Below, in pieces: positions 9,495 to 22,336 of a stretch of DNA of 22,336 bases. This stretch comes from a virus: IMG/VR virus record IMGVR_UViG_3300001097_000079, positions 1 through 22,336 of that record. The stretch is one strand, 5' to 3'. The translations under genes and the position numbers were made by a program. The notes under the pieces are model-generated. The model did not search any database. It saw only the letters and a program-made list of their open reading frames with translations, and was not told the origin of the DNA. Within the stretch, counting starts at the first letter, position 1. The number at the start of each line of letters is the position of its first letter.

Positions 9495-11066
9495 TCAATC
9501 ACTAGGCGATGGAGAATCATTACCGCCGTTTGAGTTAGAATTATCGGAACTATCCCCACCTTCACCACTTCCGCTAGGTCTTCCGTTTTCTCCGGACATA
9601 GTAGAGGACGTTTGCAAAGGTTTAAATGCATCTTTAAACTTAAATGTATTTTCGATTGAAAGGATATCCATATATTCATCAACGCCTAATCCTCTAGCAT
9701 TGACACTCAGGCTTAAATTACCACCCTTATCTAATAATCCATCAAAAGCAGAAATAATATCTTCTTTATTGAATGGCGTAATCCCTAAGAATTTTAATTT
9801 AAATTTATACTGCCCTGTTCCAACAAGAGAATTGAACTTTCTATAAAACCATATACTCTCAATCTGCTTCAACATTTTCATAACCGTATTAGTTAAAACT
9901 TCCACATTTAAAACACCTGTGCTGAAATTCCCACCTTTTAAAGCTCCCTCTCCAATTCCGGACGATGTTAAAATATCATCTTTGATTTCTTGGGTTTTAT
10001 TCTTCTCCATTGCGGATAACTGTAAAGGAACTTCTGCTATTTTTGTTCCCCCAAGGACAGTTAGAACCCCCACGTTTGACGGGACTAGACTTTTAAGGTT
10101 TTCGTGTGCTTGTACGATATCAGCTTCGCCTAAAACGGAGTTCATGTCTTTGTCAACAGGTAGCTGCTGTATAATGATTTTTCTTTTTTGACTAGCAATT
10201 ACGGCTTTATCAAGACTCTTTACCTCATCATAATAAAGTATTTCGTCTATAGTTCCGTATAAAAGTCCCAAACCTTCAGCACATTCCATATTTACACCAG
10301 TTTTGAACGTGTATGTCTTTTCTGGGGGTAGTCGTCTCCACTTTAATTCATTCACAAAATTTTCATTTACATTATCAATGCCTTTTTTATATTTCTGATA
10401 CTGAACTAAAAAGAAATTATCAAATCCTTTAAATTGGTAATTCCTCTCCCTAACAGTCAAATATTTATCAAAATACGAGAAGTCAAATTGAATTATAGGA
10501 TTCCCGTCAGACTCAACACCTACCACTCTTGTGTAATCTACTGGAAGTGGTTGTATATATGTCCCTCTGTCAAATCCGGAATATCTACCATATTTTACAA
10601 GTTTGAAAATAATATCATCAAGAGTTGCATCAAAATTACAGTTCCAAAGGTACTGTTTAATTTTATTTAACTTGGACGAATATATTTTTTCATTTATCTT
10701 TTCCTTATTTGATATCATAGGGATTAAAGAATGTTCATACGATATTAAATTTTTAGTTGTGTCGACTAACCGCCCATAGATTCCATTTGTGGCACATAGA
10801 TAGTCAGACATTCCCCTTAATTTTTTACCATTTGTAACATGGTCAGCAAGCAACCCTTTTACAGCATCGCTAGAATATTTGCTCGATTGAGATGTTCCAT
10901 TGTTGCTTAAATAACTGTAACTATCTGAACCACTTGGAGTATAAAGCTGTGCTGTGATTACTCTATCCTTTTCATCTTTTTGTATCTTTGAAACTGGGGT
11001 TTTCCCTTTAAAATCTGCCGGAGCTTCAATCTCGCTTGTGATTATATCTTTTGAATTTGTCGTCAT
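9495..11066 (-). CDS. Portal protein, 523 aa
   Basis: The portal is the dodecameric ring at one capsid vertex through which DNA is packaged and to which the terminase docks. ATG at 11066 follows a strong ribosome binding site (AAAGGAGG). The size and gene order (large terminase - portal - protease) are those of a portal. Features include a helix-rich N-terminal part with RGMSDYLCATNGIYGRLVDT, a wing region (FDATLDDIIFKLVKYGRYSG), an INEKIYSSKLNKIKQY segment, and a C-terminal helical stem and crown with SSGIGEGALKGGNFSTGVL, a stretch typical of phage portals. The last 40 or so residues are Ser/Gly/Asn/Asp-rich and disordered (SGSGEGGDSSDNSNSNGG). Confidence 0.85.
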   Translation of the reverse strand: MTTNSKDIITSEIEAPADFKGKTPVSKIQKDEKDRVITAQLYTPSGSDSYSYLSNNGTSQSSKYSSDAVKGLLADHVTNGKKLRGMSDYLCATNGIYGRLVDTTKNLISYEHSLIPMISNKEKINEKIYSSKLNKIKQYLWNCNFDATLDDIIFKLVKYGRYSGFDRGTYIQPLPVDYTRVVGVESDGNPIIQFDFSYFDKYLTVRERNYQFKGFDNFFLVQYQKYKKGIDNVNENFVNELKWRRLPPEKTYTFKTGVNMECAEGLGLLYGTIDEILYYDEVKSLDKAVIASQKRKIIIQQLPVDKDMNSVLGEADIVQAHENLKSLVPSNVGVLTVLGGTKIAEVPLQLSAMEKNKTQEIKDDILTSSGIGEGALKGGNFSTGVLNVEVLTNTVMKMLKQIESIWFYRKFNSLVGTGQYKFKLKFLGITPFNKEDIISAFDGLLDKGGNLSLSVNARGLGVDEYMDILSIENTFKFKDAFKPLQTSSTMSGENGRPSGSGEGGDSSDNSNSNGGNDSPSPSD

Positions 11067-11099: not shown

Positions 11100-11901
11100 C
11101 TAACTGTATAAGAATATCAATTTGCGACCATCTTTTTTTACTTTATCTTCGAATGTTTTTATGTACCACAACCCGTACACAGTGGCACTGTATCTGTCTT
11201 TATCAACTCTTTTAGTTACCTGCTCAACTGTCAACCTTCCGGCTTGTAAATGTTTCAGCTTTAAATTAGCAACTTCCTCGATTAAAAAATCAGTTTGGAT
11301 GCTAGGAAGGACTATATTTTTAACATAGTCCTTATCATTTAAATCATAATTATTAGTTTGATTTTTCTCTAATAATTGTAATTTTCCGCTTTCAACCATA
11401 TCAATAAAATTTACAATTATTTCGGTATTAATACCTTGTGATTGTAGAGCGTATAGGCACTTTTTGGCTGTTTTGTCATCCGGTTCATCTTCAGTATTTA
11501 TTGTGTCCCAACATTCTAAAATATCGCTACTCTGAGGGTCGAATTGTTCTTTTAACAATTCATCTTTTAATCCCTGTCCAACACCGTTTGCATCAATGAT
11601 AGCGATTTTAGCATCGTACATTTTATATACTCTTTTAAGCTCTATGGCTTGACTTGTAAAATTTAAACCATTTGGCAGGTTGATTAGGTTGACAAGTTGC
11701 ACACTTATTAATCTATCTTCCTTATTTCTCTTTGCTTTTAATATTGAAATAGAACTCTGATTATTAGATGACTTATTTGAACGAGATACGTCCATAGAGA
11801 CATAGTAATCTGATTTTCCATCTCCTTTTAATTCGGGTGTGGTCAAGACTCTTAAATCCATTAATTTGTTAATATCTATAAGAGCATCTGCACAAGCTCC
11901 A
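11100..11901 (-). CDS. terL: Terminase large subunit, exon 2 (nuclease domain)
   Basis: This is the 3' part of the large terminase gene, joined to exon 1 by removal of the group I intron. Splicing at 11902/11901 gives TGG GT|T GGA GCT, that is, W-V-G-A-C-A-D-A-L-I-D-I-N-K-L, and keeps the frame to the TAG at 11100. The RNase H-like nuclease domain that cuts concatemeric DNA is here: YYVSMDVSRS (first Asp), KIAIIDANGVGQGLKDEL (second Asp) and KDRYSATVYGLWYI (third acidic site). An ATG at 11861 (MDLRVL) could look like a gene start but has no Shine-Dalgarno sequence, and it would leave the nuclease separate from the ATPase. After both splicing steps the mature protein would be about 573 aa, a normal size. 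Confidence 0.85.
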
Positions 11902-12188
11902 CGTTTACACCCCTACTTTCGTAGTATTTATTTAGGGACTAGACTATATCTTCACCTACATCTTTCATGTTTAGGTGTCTGGCACTTCGCAATAATGAAT
12001 TTCACATTAAAGCTACTCCCTTGCGGGATAGTCGTTGCACTTTTCTTATTTCTAAGACTTAGCACAGGATTGTCATTTCATTTCTGATTTAGAGTTCCCC
12101 TGTTAGCACGAAATTATATTCGCACACCCTACATTTGTAGGTTCACCAGATTTTAATTGTACATTTCTGCACAAAAGGGCTAATTAAA
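11902..12188 (-). ncRNA. Group I intron (IA2-like, td-related), no ORF
   Basis: A 287-nt group I intron interrupts the terminase gene. The 5' splice site follows exon GGGT (ending 12189), which pairs with the intron's GCCC guide (12180-12177) with a terminal U-G pair, just as in the T4 td intron. A GAAA-capped hairpin (GTGCA/TGTAC) follows. P4 is ACAGG with CCTGT (about 12103-12099 with 12068-12064). The conserved R element GTGCAACGACTATCCC and S element GAAGATATAGTC give a 6-bp P7 (12033-12028 with 11947-11942). The intron most likely ends at G 11902. Ending at G 11899 would also keep the frame. No homing endonuclease fits inside. Confidence 0.88.
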
Positions 12189-13975
12189 ACCCATTTACAT
12201 TCATAATTCATTGAGAAAAATATTGGAGACAGCCTATCTTTTTTATCTAATATCTGAGATTTTGTTTCTCCTCTATTGTATTCGCAAGCCAGTTCCCAAC
12301 TAGACCCTAAAACAATTTTGCCTTTTAGGTCAGCCATTTCATCAATCATTCCCAGATTTCTTTCAAATTCGTCCGAACCTCTGAAGCCGGATGTTGTAAA
12401 GAAATTAATTTGCCCGTTCACTTCCTCTGGGCTTATTAACGCTTCCTTACCTATTGTTCTTCTTGGAATATTGACAATTGGTTCAAGAGCATCTTCAAAT
12501 AGTGCATTGTTTAATAAATTAGACTCTTCAATATTCAAACGTTTTCTTCTTGACCCTTTGCTCGTTTGGGAATTGGCTAATATGTTTATTAACCCTCCAG
12601 AAATAAAAGAAACCATAGCACTATCTTTAACGAAACTGGATTTTACAATCTCATTTCCAAGTAAAGGATAGAATTTCACAATCTCTCTGTGCTTCTCTTC
12701 TAAAAGTTTTGAGGCGTTATCCTTAGTCTGAGCTGACATAGATACTTCAATGTCTGGGTAAAATATACAGACCAAATACATAGCAAGAATTTCTATAAAA
12801 GTGTTATGACTCACAAAACCATTAGAAACAAAACTATTAGTCTTAGGAAGAGATAAATCGTATACATGATTTTGACTATCAACTACACTTTTAACTTTAG
12901 AATAATAATAATCTGCACTACCCAATTCCAAAGAGGGATTAATTTCTCTTTCTGTTTTACACATCTCTATTAACTTGTTTTGTATCGCCTTATCACTAAA
13001 GCCTATCTCTCTTAAATACAAGCTCATATATTCTCTATCTATTTCTATAAAATATGAATATGAGATGTCATCTTGTTTAGTTATTTTATTTCTATCTGAG
13101 ACAATTCCGAAATTTAACAAAACCGTCTGAACCTGTTTTGATAATTTTTCAGAAGTGGTGCGGTATCTTATATAGGAATCAGAAATACTACATCCGGTAT
13201 TGAACAACCCCTGTATAAACTTTGAAACTGTATTTTTAGGAGATTCTAATATACATTTAGGAATTTCATTCTCAAACGCATCTCTAACATTTGTCCTAAT
13301 AAACTCATCTTCCTCAAGCTTTAAACAGGTTGATTTTCCCCAAACATTATTTCCCCTACTAATAACTAAATAGTCATCTTGACTAATATCTTCTGACTTT
13401 TTCCATTCGTGCTTTCCATCTTTACCAATGACAAGCAAGGGGTGATTTAAAGATGCTTCAATTTCAAATCCTTCTTCAGTAATTACCTTTTTGGTATCTT
13501 TGTATCCACTGTAGACTCCTGCGCTTGGAATTTCTAATTGATTGTACCTGTTCACTATCTTAACTTCTGGAATAGTAAAAGTTTCTTTATCATCAGATTG
13601 ATAATCAAAATACTCTCCAATTTCTTTAATACCTTCATCTGTTAGGATTAAAGTGTCGCCACTTACGCATTTTCCATATCCACGGGGAAATACCCCATAA
13701 ACAGAAGCGAATCTTGCTATACTTCTTAAAAATACCCTTTGGTCTAAATCTAATCTTATACTTCCGGTTTCTGGAGTTATTAAATCTATATACAAATCTG
13801 GATTCCATCTAGCCCAACTAATAAAATCAACATATTTGTCCATATTCTTAGTTAAACTATCGCCCTCTTTAGCACCTTTGCTTTTTACAGTTGCGTTAAA
13901 TTCGGGATTTTTTATATCTGACCTGTTCTTTTCATTCTTCATATTATCTGATTGAAAATTTCCATAACTACTCAT
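12189..13975 (-). CDS. terL: Terminase large subunit, exon 1 (ATPase domain, contains an intein)
   Basis: This is the 5' part of the packaging motor gene. ATG at 13975 overlaps the end of the zinc-finger gene by 8 nt. The ATPase P-loop FPRGYGK|TFIE is split by an intein (residues 103-391). After protein splicing it reads R-G-Y-G-K-T. A Walker B candidate is RLNIEES. A conserved ATPase end segment, INFFTTSGFRGSDEFERN, follows. The unspliced frame would read through the intron into a TGA near 12143, giving a truncated protein with a nonsense tail (VLISPFVQKCTIKIW). The complete protein needs both group I splicing and intein removal. Precursor length after RNA splicing is 862 aa, and mature length about 573 aa. 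The family call is confident. Confidence 0.9.
12803..13669 (-). mobile_element. Intein in the terminase Walker A loop (289 aa) with degenerate LAGLIDADG domain
   Basis: All splicing blocks are visible. Block A is CVSGDTLILTDEG with Cys103 as first residue. Block B is EIEASLNHPLLVI (N-x-x-H). Blocks F and G are HVYDLSLPKTNSFVSNGF and VSHN, with penultimate His390 and terminal Asn391. The +1 extein residue is Thr392, which is also the P-loop Thr. Between them lies an endonuclease-like region. Its first motif is FIQGLFNTGCSIS, where the LAGLIDADG consensus has G-L-F-D-A-D-G, so the catalytic Asp is replaced by Gly. The second motif (YMSLYLREIGFS) is hardly recognisable. The splicing part looks active and the homing part dead. 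Confidence 0.92.
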
Positions 13976-14951
13976 CTAAATCACCGTCACGTTCTTCTTC
14001 ATCATCTTCATCATCACTAAAAATACTTTCACTATCTAAAGTTCTATTTTCATATTCCTTTTTACGAATTTCATAGAAGTTATAAATCTCTTTGTACTCG
14101 CAAGCGGGAAGACCTTTCATGTCTCTTACATAATTAATGTAACAGAGCAATGTAAAATCAACTTTGTCCTGTGGTTTCTCTTTAAATTTTGGAAGAATTG
14201 GAATAATATCAACAGCCTGTTCCACTGCACGAACCAACTCTCCAAATGTAGATAGACCATCCATTAGGTCTGCCTTACTTAACTGACTTGGATTTATTTT
14301 AGCGGATGTTCCGGCAGCACTTGCCATAGCTCCCCACTCTTTTGCGTCCTTGATATAGCCGGCTGCGGTTGCAAATTCCTCCTTAACTCTGTATCTAATA
14401 TAGTTAATCAGTGCTTCAGTATGCATTGCGGTCTTTTCGGTATAGTTGTTCTTTAAAAAGTCATATTTCTTTTCAAATGCTTGATATTCTTTTTTCTCAT
14501 ATCCTGCACCCCATTTATCTTCAATTTCTACACTGAGGGTAAATTCTTTCTGGGACGTTGAGGACAGATAATTTCTTTCCTCTATAGATTTTGGGTCAAA
14601 CTCTGAATCTTTCCAAGTCGTATCTCTGTACTGGTGCATTGCTAAATTCTTTATATAGAATCCAAAACTATCACCTTTTCCTTCAGTTGCGGAAACCCAT
14701 AAGTCCCATATAAAAGGCTTGTCCATTATCTGCAAAGCTTTCTTTAAAAGGGTAAGCTGTACGTCTCCGTAATCATCAGTTATCATAGATTTTAAACATG
14801 TTTTACAATACGGAATCTTACCGGTAGCTTCATGTACCTTTTGGTAACTTTTGTAAAACTCAGTTTCTTTTTTTAATTCCCCACAAGAGGCACAGGTTAT
14901 ATCTTTTGCTTTTTTCTTTTTTACTGGTGTTAATCTACTCTTTGCTGCCAT
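13968..14951 (-). CDS. Zinc-finger protein, probable terminase small subunit, 327 aa
   Basis: ATG at 14951 has a clear ribosome binding site (AGGAAGTG). The N-terminus is Lys-rich (LTPVKKKKAKDIT) and carries a four-Cys zinc ribbon (C20-x2-C23 and C49-x2-C52). The rest is helical with QLTLLKKALQIMDKPFIWDLW, and the C-terminus is extremely acidic (SDDEDDEEERDGDLDE). The gene sits immediately upstream of, and overlaps, the large terminase gene, the normal position for the small subunit that recognises viral DNA. A DNA-binding zinc finger fits this role. No classical small-terminase HTH is seen, so the assignment rests on position and DNA-binding features. The preceding gap contains a terminator. 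Confidence 0.65.
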   Translation of the reverse strand: MAAKSRLTPVKKKKAKDITCASCGELKKETEFYKSYQKVHEATGKIPYCKTCLKSMITDDYGDVQLTLLKKALQIMDKPFIWDLWVSATEGKGDSFGFYIKNLAMHQYRDTTWKDSEFDPKSIEERNYLSSTSQKEFTLSVEIEDKWGAGYEKKEYQAFEKKYDFLKNNYTEKTAMHTEALINYIRYRVKEEFATAAGYIKDAKEWGAMASAAGTSAKINPSQLSKADLMDGLSTFGELVRAVEQAVDIIPILPKFKEKPQDKVDFTLLCYINYVRDMKGLPACEYKEIYNFYEIRKKEYENRTLDSESIFSDDEDDEEERDGDLDE

Positions 14952-16655: not shown

Positions 16656-18077
16656 CTACACAGTGGCAGTCATGCCTTTTATTGTTGCTATTACTTTTGT
16701 TGTTTTATTCATTTTAGATATTTCGCCCTCCAGCAATTTTTTAAACTCCAGTTTCCCCTTCTCTTCTCCATGAACTAAATATATTTTATCTGTGTTTATA
16801 CTTTTCAAATAATTTAAAAGTTCTTTCTGTTGAATATGAGATGAGTAGCTCCCAAGCATCATGATTCCACATTTGTTTTTACGTGAGACTTTATCAATTG
16901 TAATGGTTTTCTGTCCACTTTTTATTTTGCCACCAATACTATTTGGAGGGCAATAGCCACATATAATAACACCATCGTTGTAGTTGCCAATATATTCTCC
17001 TAAATAATTAACAACTCTCCCTTTCTGGAGGAATCCTGAGCTGCTTAAAACAATTTTAGGGGATTTATCTATTACACATAACTGGCTCTCTTTATAATCT
17101 TTTATAAACCTTACATTCTTCCAATTACAGGCTTTTTCAAATAATTCTAAGTTTTCACCTTCTAGTACACTTTTATAAACTTTATTTATCTCCCATATTA
17201 GGGGAGAATCAACAATTACTGGTATTTTGAAATTCTCATCTCCCCCATAAAGGAGAAACAGGTCTGTAAGAATTTGCTGAGACCTTGATAGTGCAAAAAC
17301 TGGAATTAATATCCTACCTTTTTTAACATTGCAAATCTCATCAACGGCAACTTGTATTTTTTCTAAATCTTTTTCTCTATTTGGTTTAATTCCTTTAGCA
17401 GAACCTCCGTATGTTGATTCACTGATTACGATAGTTGTCTTTTTGCATTTTTCCAAATCACTTACATAATGATTTTTTGTTTGTGGACTTCCTAAGTCAC
17501 TTGTATAAAGAATCTTGTCAATATGTCCAGAAGCATTCTTAATAAACAGTTCTAATTGAAAAGCTCCAATAATATGAGAATTTTTTAAAAATTTAAAACT
17601 GATTTCTTCATCTAATTTATGAATTTCTCCGAATCTATAAGTTTCAGTTAAATCTATCATTCCATAAACATCTTCCTCGCTGTAATATGGGGAAACCGAC
17701 TTACCATATTTTTTTGTTAAATAGTCAGAATCTTTTCTTATAATCTTAGCAGAGTCAAGCCCCATTGGTTTCATTAAAGCTTTAGCGATATCTGTAGATA
17801 TAATCTTACCATTAAAACCGTCATGTACTAATTTGGGAATTAATCCACTATGGTCAATATGTGAATGATTGAGAAAAACGTAGTCAATACTCTTTGGCTT
17901 GAATGGAAATGACTTTGAGTTTTCTTTGAAGTCATCTAACTGATTAGATGATTGTGTCATTCCACACTCTAATAGTATCTTCTTAGTTGAGGTTTCGACT
18001 AAGTACATTGAGCCGGTAACTGATTTTGAAGCATTGCCTAAAAAACTAACTTTTACTTTGTCTTTTTTTTTACTCAT
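16656..18077 (-). CDS. Beta-CASP metallo-beta-lactamase-fold ribonuclease, 473 aa
   Basis: This protein belongs to the CPSF73/Ysh1-like beta-CASP family of zinc-dependent RNases that cut or trim RNA. Motifs in order: NHSHIDHSG (H71-x-H73-x-D75-H76), NSHIIGA (H168), YTSDLG (D194), ESTYGG (E220, motif A), SSSGFLQKGR (about 345-354), SYSSHIQQKEL (H414, motif B), and LVHGEEK (H436, motif C). All metal ligands are present, so it looks active. It lacks the archaeal KH domains and the RNase J C-terminal domain. ATG at 18077 has AAAGGA upstream. A promoter-like motif (18141-18160) precedes it, itself following a terminator, so this gene opens a new unit. It could process phage tRNA or mRNA, or host RNA. 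Confidence 0.87.
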   Translation of the reverse strand: MSKKKDKVKVSFLGNASKSVTGSMYLVETSTKKILLECGMTQSSNQLDDFKENSKSFPFKPKSIDYVFLNHSHIDHSGLIPKLVHDGFNGKIISTDIAKALMKPMGLDSAKIIRKDSDYLTKKYGKSVSPYYSEEDVYGMIDLTETYRFGEIHKLDEEISFKFLKNSHIIGAFQLELFIKNASGHIDKILYTSDLGSPQTKNHYVSDLEKCKKTTIVISESTYGGSAKGIKPNREKDLEKIQVAVDEICNVKKGRILIPVFALSRSQQILTDLFLLYGGDENFKIPVIVDSPLIWEINKVYKSVLEGENLELFEKACNWKNVRFIKDYKESQLCVIDKSPKIVLSSSGFLQKGRVVNYLGEYIGNYNDGVIICGYCPPNSIGGKIKSGQKTITIDKVSRKNKCGIMMLGSYSSHIQQKELLNYLKSINTDKIYLVHGEEKGKLEFKKLLEGEISKMNKTTKVIATIKGMTATV

Positions 18078-18342: not shown

Positions 18343-18418
18343 TGGTGTCTATAATAGGATTCGAACCTATACTGGACGGATTTTAAGTCCGTTACCTCTG
18401 CCGTTGGGCTATATAGAC
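18343..18418 (-). tRNA. tRNA-Leu(UAA)-like, short variable loop, CCA encoded
   Basis: A 76-nt cloverleaf can be drawn. The acceptor stem is GTCTATA/TATAGAC (7 bp), the anticodon stem ACGGA/TCCGT with loop CTTAAAA (anticodon UAA, reading UUA), the T arm ATAGG-TTCGAAT-CCTAT, discriminator A, and encoded CCA. The variable loop is only 5 nt (CCAGT), although bacterial tRNA-Leu normally has a long variable arm. The D stem (GCCC/AGGT) has one mismatch and one G-U pair. The UUA codon is very common in these genes, which fits a supplementary tRNA, but charging by the host leucyl-tRNA synthetase is uncertain. Confidence 0.85.
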
Positions 18419-19711: not shown

Positions 19712-22336
19712 TTAACTGTTTTTTATATCTTCTCTTGTCATTTTAACATATTCAACACCGAATATATTATAGTCAAAAGCCCCTTGAGATTTCACAAGAA
19801 ATTCATCCAAACCCGTACTATCACTCTTGAAACACTTTATAACTTGAACCCTCTTTGATGAGTATAATAAATTTAAAGTCAGCATAGCATATTTTTTAAA
19901 TCCAAATTTATCATTCTCTTTAGTAGTAAAACACTGTTTGAGAATATACAATATAGTTTTATCGTTTAGGTATAACTCCTTCAATTTAATTATAGCCTCT
20001 ATCTTTACCTTTTTCTCAACTGTCTTTTTCCCCTGTGACCCTAATGTACAGTTTTTCGTTCTCAATCCATTTATTGCCTTTCCACAAACCTCAACCATGT
20101 CATAGATGTTCTGAGCACTTTTGTATCTACTCGTTCCTTCTATGTCTTTTGATTTAATTAGCAGCTCTCCAAAACCTATATTCTTACTACCTTTTAAATA
20201 GTTACTATTTTTAAATGTTAGAACATCTTGTAAAATATCGAGAGGGGTATTAAACGTTTCAAAAATTCTATACTCATTGAAATCTGATATCATCCCAAAG
20301 AATTTTGGTACTATCATCTTCCTTGCTATCTGCCCGTACTTATCTTTCTCTTCTATGTATCTTAAATAGTCAATCTTTCTCATCTTACTCAGCTCTTTAC
20401 TCATACTCACATTGTCAAACACCTTTTTACTTTTATCAATTTCTATTTGACTCATACTTGATAGCCGGCTGCTTGCATTATATAACTCATCTATAATATA
20501 TTGACCCTCACTTTTTGAGATAGCATCGTTCATATACGAGTTTATTATCTGTGACATATTGACTATTCTTCCTATGTAATTATCACTTAGAATAATATCT
20601 AATTTCTGTAGCTCTCGCATATTATATTTTCTTAATTTCGAATCACCCTCTACTCGATTTAAGGGAGTGGGAAAGTTTTTTTCACAATACTTTGCATGTT
20701 TCACCAATATTGGATGTGGTAGTAATAAATTTGTGTCGCTGTCTGTATCCTCCCCCTGTAACCTATCTGGCATATCATTATCATAGAAATTTACAATCAT
20801 AATATTGTCAGTAAAGTTAAACCAATCATATTCACTTTGGAGCACATTCTTACTATACATTACATTACCAGAATTAATATGTGGGTTTCTGGAAACACAG
20901 AACTCTTGCCCATCATCATAATATTGACAAAATACTTCACGACCTTGCATGATAGAGTTCCCCTTATACTTTCCTATTGAATGTTGCAACATTTCGTAGG
21001 GATTTGATATAATAGTTACATATTTAGCATCTTTTATCCGTATTTTCCCTCTTTTAAGATGTCCTATATAGTTTGAAATCAAATCACTTTTTATCTTTTT
21101 AAACTTTGTTGTGTATTGAATATCTGGATTTACAAATAATAAAGCATTCATTAACTCCATATTCTCATACAACTCTTCATCGCCTTTGCCAAAGTCCTCA
21201 TCCACTATTAATTTACTTTCTCCCTCTCCACAGAAGTAGTTTCTAAACACAGAGATGTCATTCTTTAGTAGCATTACATAATCTCTCTCAAGTTCTGTAA
21301 TGTCCATTAGGTCATCATAGGTTAACGTGGGCATGCTATTCAAAAGCTGATATGTGCTCCTATTATAGTCTCCATAGTTTCCGGTTTTATCACACTTCAC
21401 TACACCGAACATTGAATCTATGCTGTCCTGCCAATATTGGTAGCAACCTTTTTTGCTTCCATCTCCTATTTTGTAAGCGAACTTTAAAAACTTCAAAGAG
21501 TTAGGTGTAATGATTAGTTTTATCTTCTTAGCGTCATACTCAGTCCCGAACATGTCGGTTAATGTAGAAACGCTATTATGCTCAAACCACTTTTGTAATT
21601 TAGTATTGAATGCACAGTCTTTGAACATATCACTACGCAACAGCATAAAACCTTTATCTGTTTTCTTGTATTCTTCAAAAACTGATTCGTCCATTAGCCC
21701 CTGTCCATCTGTTAGGCAGTTTCTAATAGTTACTACTTCACTATTTGTAATTAATTCTCCACCTTCCTCTTTTGTCACACTTGCTAGACTAGAAAATTCT
21801 TCTCCGTAGATATCATCAATCAATAAAATCTCAGTCTTAGGGTCTAGGTTAATTGTAAATTCAATTCCAGATGAGATTAAAGACTCATAAGCCAATAGAC
21901 CTGTTAAATCTAATTCCTCATCTTTTTCAAATTTAAGTCCTAATCTACTCCTGTCTAGCAATATGTCTCTCATGTCTTCCTGTATGTAAAATGCATACCC
22001 ATTCTTAGCTTTACCTGCCCCTCTCTTATAGAATATATAGTGCACTCCATCCATATCAAAACCATTTACATATAGGTATTTTCTTATCTTTTTCTTATTG
22101 GCAATTGCAACTCGCTTTCCAGTTTTTTCTTCCCCCTCTTTGCTTATCCATTCTTTTTCCTCATCCCATTTGGTATAGTTCTTCTCAAACGTAATGTTGA
22201 TAATTTTCCTTGTGTACTGCTTGTTTTTCACGGAATAGAATGCATCAGAGAACATTTTATTGAGTCTTATCGTTTCTAGGCTGTAAGGTACAGTAGCCGA
22301 AAACAGCTTTGATAAGTCTCTGTTCTTATATGTTGT
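19712..22336 (-). CDS. YonO/RdRP-like single-chain two-barrel RNA polymerase, 5'-truncated by the window edge
   Basis: At least 874 residues of a large enzyme are visible. The Met at 22255 has no Shine-Dalgarno sequence, and the frame stays open upstream to 22336 (TTYKNRDLSKLFSATVPYS), so the true start lies outside. Near residue 500 (counted from that Met) is RLQGEDTDSDTNLL, a D-x-D-x-D triad matching the Mg-binding DxDGD of two-double-psi-barrel RNA polymerases (SPbeta YonO, QDE-1-type RdRPs), with Ser in place of Gly. Upstream lie DGQGLMDE with FMLLRSDMFKDC (first-barrel region) and CVSRNPHINSGNV, matching the R-N-P-x-x-x-x-G-(N/D) motif before the catalytic loop. Proteins of this family transcribe phage DNA independently of host RNA polymerase. 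The family call is inferred from motifs and would be settled by a profile search. Confidence 0.75.
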   Translation of the reverse strand, partial: TTYKNRDLSKLFSATVPYSLETIRLNKMFSDAFYSVKNKQYTRKIINITFEKNYTKWDEEKEWISKEGEEKTGKRVAIANKKKIRKYLYVNGFDMDGVHYIFYKRGAGKAKNGYAFYIQEDMRDILLDRSRLGLKFEKDEELDLTGLLAYESLISSGIEFTINLDPKTEILLIDDIYGEEFSSLASVTKEEGGELITNSEVVTIRNCLTDGQGLMDESVFEEYKKTDKGFMLLRSDMFKDCAFNTKLQKWFEHNSVSTLTDMFGTEYDAKKIKLIITPNSLKFLKFAYKIGDGSKKGCYQYWQDSIDSMFGVVKCDKTGNYGDYNRSTYQLLNSMPTLTYDDLMDITELERDYVMLLKNDISVFRNYFCGEGESKLIVDEDFGKGDEELYENMELMNALLFVNPDIQYTTKFKKIKSDLISNYIGHLKRGKIRIKDAKYVTIISNPYEMLQHSIGKYKGNSIMQGREVFCQYYDDGQEFCVSRNPHINSGNVMYSKNVLQSEYDWFNFTDNIMIVNFYDNDMPDRLQGEDTDSDTNLLLPHPILVKHAKYCEKNFPTPLNRVEGDSKLRKYNMRELQKLDIILSDNYIGRIVNMSQIINSYMNDAISKSEGQYIIDELYNASSRLSSMSQIEIDKSKKVFDNVSMSKELSKMRKIDYLRYIEEKDKYGQIARKMIVPKFFGMISDFNEYRIFETFNTPLDILQDVLTFKNSNYLKGSKNIGFGELLIKSKDIEGTSRYKSAQNIYDMVEVCGKAINGLRTKNCTLGSQGKKTVEKKVKIEAIIKLKELYLNDKTILYILKQCFTTKENDKFGFKKYAMLTLNLLYSSKRVQVIKCFKSDSTGLDEFLVKSQGAFDYNIFGVEYVKMTREDIKNS

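Follow-up and report, generated by a model that had tools for sequence, protein, structure and literature searches.

An intein and a group I intron, apparently without working endonucleases, in the large terminase gene of an SPbeta-like phage

The large terminase (TerL) gene of the viral record IMGVR_UViG_3300001097_000079, of which a stretch of 22,336 nucleotides was analysed in full (hereafter the window), is interrupted twice: by an in-frame intein between the Lys and the Thr of its Walker A motif (K/T; a slash marks a junction) and by a group I intron at a Trp-Val/Gly site (W-V/G). This combination had been proposed in the original prediction, and it is borne out by matches in Rfam, Pfam and NCBIfam, by the fold of the intein and by the open frame of the joined exons; the predicted splice coordinates, 12189/11901, proved exact. 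Very probably, the two are separately acquired homing elements, both without working endonucleases, that persist through selected splicing and play no regulatory role. The parts of the gene are as follows.

Positions 13975 to 11100, minus strand: the whole TerL gene, both elements included.
Positions 12189 to 13975, minus strand: TerL exon 1, intein included, with the N-terminal region, Walker A (GYGK/T), Walker B (LNIEE) and the coupling motif (TTS).
Positions 12803 to 13669, minus strand: in-frame intein of 289 amino acids, running from Cys1 to HN/Thr+1, between the Lys and Thr of Walker A (K102/T103).
Positions 11902 to 12188, minus strand: group I intron of 287 nucleotides (RF00028) at W-V/G.
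Positions 11100 to 11901, minus strand: TerL exon 2, stop codon included, with the end of the linker and the RNase H-like nuclease domain, whose motif I Asp lies in YVSMDVSRS.

The joined frame of exons 1 and 2 is open, and without the intein it encodes a host protein of 573 amino acids. The refuting test named in advance, alignment of the 12189/11901 join to homologous terminases, was run, and the homologues read through it gap-free. Indeed, once both elements are removed, the 573-residue TerL matches dozens of uninterrupted relatives with no gap at either site, so that the two insertion sites are supported by homologues continuous across both. The sequence also agrees with the earlier suggestion that a full-length motor would require RNA splicing as well as protein splicing.

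The 287-nucleotide insertion is, by its sequence, a group I intron and is predicted to be self-splicing. It matches the full Rfam model RF00028 (1-253) with 60.1 bits and an E-value of 3.4e-13, its core (P3-P9) scoring above the gathering score of 50, and the intron strand folds better than all of its shuffled versions (z-score -4.0). In P1, the exon sequence UGGGU pairs with the guide GCCC, which puts a U.G pair at the 5' splice site, and the intron closes with the omega-G at its 3' end; the pair and the terminal G resolve a one-base ambiguity of the junction to 12189/11901, with boundaries TGGGT/TTTAATTAGCCC at the 5' side and ...AAACG/TGGAGC at the 3' side. On unspliced RNA, translation would halt at 12143, within the intron, while its removal restores the host frame in agreement with uninterrupted homologues. 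The intron site falls in the linker between ATPase and nuclease, with some 36 residues separating it from the first catalytic Asp downstream. No endonuclease open reading frame (ORF) was found in the 287 nucleotides, in which the longest stop-free stretch is 61 codons, so that by this feature the element is not a mobile, homing-competent group I intron.

An orthologous intron interrupts another SPbeta-like TerL gene at the same nucleotide. It lies in locus L281 (IMGVR 3300047196_000353), a contig separate from the window:

L281:6615-7821: orthologous intron of 1207 nucleotides in TerL, at the nucleotide of the window intron (W-V/G, residue 307/308).

With the endonuclease ORF left out, the two introns share 68% identity over 266 positions; their 5' ends, cores and 3' ends align, and the splice boundaries are the same. 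The P6 loop of the L281 intron holds an ORF of 309 amino acids that matches PHROG_559 (E 1e-56), an endonuclease family reported in TerL introns of the Bastillevirinae (PMC11878797). The L281 intron and its ORF thus mark W-V/G as a site entered by an intron family that carries a homing endonuclease, and on sequence grounds the window intron is a copy of this family without the endonuclease. L281 differs from the window in carrying the endonuclease gene and in having no intein in its TerL. In a Neobacillus prophage, two closely spaced stretches related to the window intron (L025:510-1367) lie in another gene, and the TerL gene there is uninterrupted.

The intein carries the features of a class 1 intein, namely a Hint fold, an N-terminal Cys and a C-terminal His-Asn followed by Thr, where Cys or Ser may also stand (its C-terminal junction reads VSHN/T). 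Pfam matches it to Intein_splicing (E 6e-17) and LAGLIDADG_3 (E 5e-10), the N- and C-terminal intein domains of NCBIfam both match, and the best Protein Data Bank (PDB) matches of its AlphaFold model (pLDDT 86) are inteins. In the model, the Hint domain is predicted with confidence together with one endonuclease half, and two deletion scars are of low confidence. K102/T103 is contiguous in most relatives, so that the extein junction is that of intein-free homologues. A mobile intein of this type would carry two LAGLIDADG motifs with their catalytic Asp; the window intein lacks the first motif as well as a stretch that follows the second, and this second motif reads GLFNTGC against GLFDTDG, its catalytic Asp being replaced. 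The inteins at K/T in relatives measure 432-449 amino acids, and in all ten that were checked both motifs are intact. In the retained endonuclease half, the window intein shares 51% identity with close relatives, against 67% among the relatives themselves, whereas the two splicing halves show no comparable drop (54 vs 58% and 60 vs 62%), and the splicing blocks are conserved. Divergence of the endonuclease half but not of the splicing halves is the signature of an intein that has to splice and no longer homes; the window element looks like one that has lost homing, with splicing competence predicted. A search with the window intein alone returned no relatives, but a search with an intein alignment did find them.

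Relatives were collected from viral contigs, genomes and phage records, and loci sharing an identical 80-mer were grouped, which gave 97 clusters with the window excluded. The searches were ranked by similarity and the best 80 loci of each list were taken, so that the cluster counts are not natural frequencies. Ranking by the whole protein favours uninterrupted genes; separate searches were run with exon 2 and with the exon 1 part. Among the matches listed, no gap occurs at the intein site in 82 of the 97 clusters or at the intron site in 95, 14 clusters have an insertion at K/T, and the W-V/G intron is found in L281 only. Most intein-bearing relatives are without an intron and L281 is without an intein, indicating that the two elements travel separately. 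One relative, L015 (IMGVR 3300031227_001844; TerL at L015:1338-3916, SPbeta-like), shares with the window the K/T intein plus a group I intron, and differs in that its intein is of full length with both LAGLIDADG motifs and its intron, about 970 nucleotides with an ORF (33.6 bits, E 2e-9), is inserted at another site, after LFED near Walker B (near 206/207). With two doubly interrupted genes, that of the window and that of L015, set against some 97 listed clusters of relatives, it was fair to call the coexistence uncommon.

Other sites of the gene have been entered as well. An insertion at 413/414 (L125:6177-6441) is a group I intron without ORF (90.6 bits), and one at 175/176 (L228:2405-2860) contains, on reading, a group I-like core sequence, although an Rfam search of this insert gave no match. 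Taken at the sequence level, the SPbeta-like TerL gene appears as a repeated target with a single intein site and some four intron sites; of the latter, three gave Rfam matches to group I introns and the L228 site is counted on core-like sequence alone. As to whether intein and intron are associated, the introns among the relatives are too few to support such a claim. When 399 genomes from one class and 100 from one genus were searched for prophages, the close matches were all uninterrupted copies. Two suspected carriers were dropped: L195, which begins exactly at exon 2, since its first bases fit a TGT codon present there in some other relatives, and L309, which reads straight through. Contig L300 stops precisely at the 5' splice site (TGGGT), perhaps by chance or through an assembly break at an intron, and was not used.

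From its sequence and context, the host gene encodes the large terminase, and the phage is SPbeta-like, with Gram-positive hosts. Pfam gave the window host protein no name. Its identification follows from PHROGs that tie its relatives to large terminases, from an annotated relative named terminase in Psychrobacillus phage Perkons, a cultured phage that also has the intein, from the adjoining portal gene and from the fold of the uninterrupted relative L003. The best PDB matches of the predicted L003 structure are T4 gp17 (E 1e-10) and other TerL proteins, and the model also matches TerL nuclease domains by fold; it is of medium confidence overall at full length (pLDDT 69) and good in the nuclease domain. 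Together with the PHROG matches, the modelled fold points to the TerL architecture of an ATPase joined to an RNase H-like nuclease. The neighbouring genes are these.

Positions 9495 to 11066, minus strand: portal protein gene, downstream of TerL (phrog_2739, E 3e-63), giving a packaging-module context.
Positions 13968 to 14951, minus strand: gene directly upstream of TerL with an overlap of 8 nucleotides (PHROG_3314), context only; at the N-terminus its product weakly resembles endonuclease VII/HNH families.

Further away on the minus strand, the phage genome encodes a Beta-CASP/RMMBL metallo-beta-lactamase nuclease like RNA-processing enzymes (window positions 16656-18077), a tRNA-Leu with anticodon UAA (18343-18418) and a large PHROG_8308 protein of unknown function (19712-22336). 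A DTDSD-containing stretch in the last of these may resemble the YonO RNA polymerase of SPbeta.

Genes with both kinds of element are known. For example, the ribonucleotide reductase gene bnrdE (nrdE) of SPbeta contains an intron and an intein (Lazarevic 1998/2001, as cited in PMC3653736 and PMC8270828); the window phage is of the same broad lineage as SPbeta, but the gene and the insertion sites differ. The TerL gene of Campylobacter phage vB_CcoM-IBB_35 (gene 2-52) was published as interrupted by an intein and an intron (PMC3322345), the same combination as in the window, in a T4-like TerL. In that region (L365:41760-47033) we found three Hint-like segments and a MobE endonuclease gene; an RF00028 search of the record gave no match, so that a group I intron was not confirmed there and the kind of its intron is uncertain. 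The TerL1-a inteins of mycobacteriophages separate the invariant Lys from the Thr of the P-loop, a well-documented, "classic" site that they share with the window in another terminase family; an intron is not described with them in the available text (PMC5050341). In the Bastillevirinae, group I introns occur in TerL, some with PHROG_559, and splicing of the SIOphi TerL was shown experimentally; theirs is another terminase, and, as far as the available text goes, an intein is not reported in those genes (PMC11878797). TerL inteins and many introns are also known from crAss-like phages (PMC7886860).

The elements are separate in most relatives, their sites are fixed and endonuclease-bearing versions exist, so that the simplest history would be two invasions whose homing functions were then lost or absent. 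Each element would have entered TerL on its own, at the preferred site of its family, the intein at K/T and the intron at W-V/G. Neither would now be able to home by itself, since the LAGLIDADG part of the intein is deleted and mutated and the intron has no endonuclease gene. The intron would splice itself from the mRNA in a GTP-dependent reaction that ligates 12189 to 11901; after translation, the intein would cut itself out of the precursor and leave the 573-residue motor. Since TerL would work only after exact excision, splicing would stay under selection and both elements would persist. The sequences show the anatomy, the insertion sites, the homologies, the lost endonuclease motifs and the conserved splicing blocks; splicing in vivo, the independence of the invasions and the lack of a regulatory role are what we infer, and some points weigh against this history. 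The splicing of both elements is itself deduced from their features, the window and L281 introns do not decide between an endonuclease that was lost and one never present, and, the window being a 22-kb fragment, the phage may have a freestanding endonuclease outside it that mobilises either element.

The original prediction had gone further and proposed that splicing times or conditions packaging, for example on redox state through the Cys of the intein. For such a use, the GTP-dependent intron and the Cys1 intein would both be kept as regulators that delay TerL maturation until the energy or redox state of the cell suits packaging; that both have no working endonuclease yet retain their splicing features would fit, and a similar "molecular on-switch" idea has been put forward for phage introns (PMC11878797). 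However, Cys1 is generic to this class of inteins, most relatives carry neither element, and the distribution is sporadic in sites and types and site-specific, as expected of homing elements; retention is expected without regulation as well, because an essential gene tolerates exact loss only. The timing claim thus found no support, and regulation of this kind is improbable. Domestication through loss of both endonucleases, with serial splicing as a maturation checkpoint in which the RNA senses GTP and the protein senses redox state or folding, is improbable to the same degree. Still less probable is that TerL is a decaying gene of a defective prophage in which splicing of either element is unneeded: the viability of the phage cannot be judged from a fragment, but the gene keeps its exons, splicing blocks and ribozyme core undamaged and in register, the surrounding packaging genes are intact and the faster divergence is confined to the endonuclease part of the intein. 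The least probable explanation is that the intron is some other insertion or an assembly artefact and not a group I intron; this exact sequence is available in a single copy, but the full-length RF00028 match, the folding score and, above all, the ortholog at the identical nucleotide in L281 already contradict it.

A gene with both elements is thus of a kind already known and uncommon, and what is less usual is that both are without an endonuclease. A regulatory use is possible in principle, resting on nothing specific to the window locus. With two separately acquired elements held in place by selected splicing, the window would add a clearly delimited example of an essential phage gene dependent on splicing of its RNA and of its protein. 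Furthermore, it takes its place in a comparative series for TerL, consisting of empty genes, genes with the intein only, a gene with the endonuclease-bearing intron and genes with both elements, which offers suitable material for testing how homing elements enter a gene, decay and are retained.
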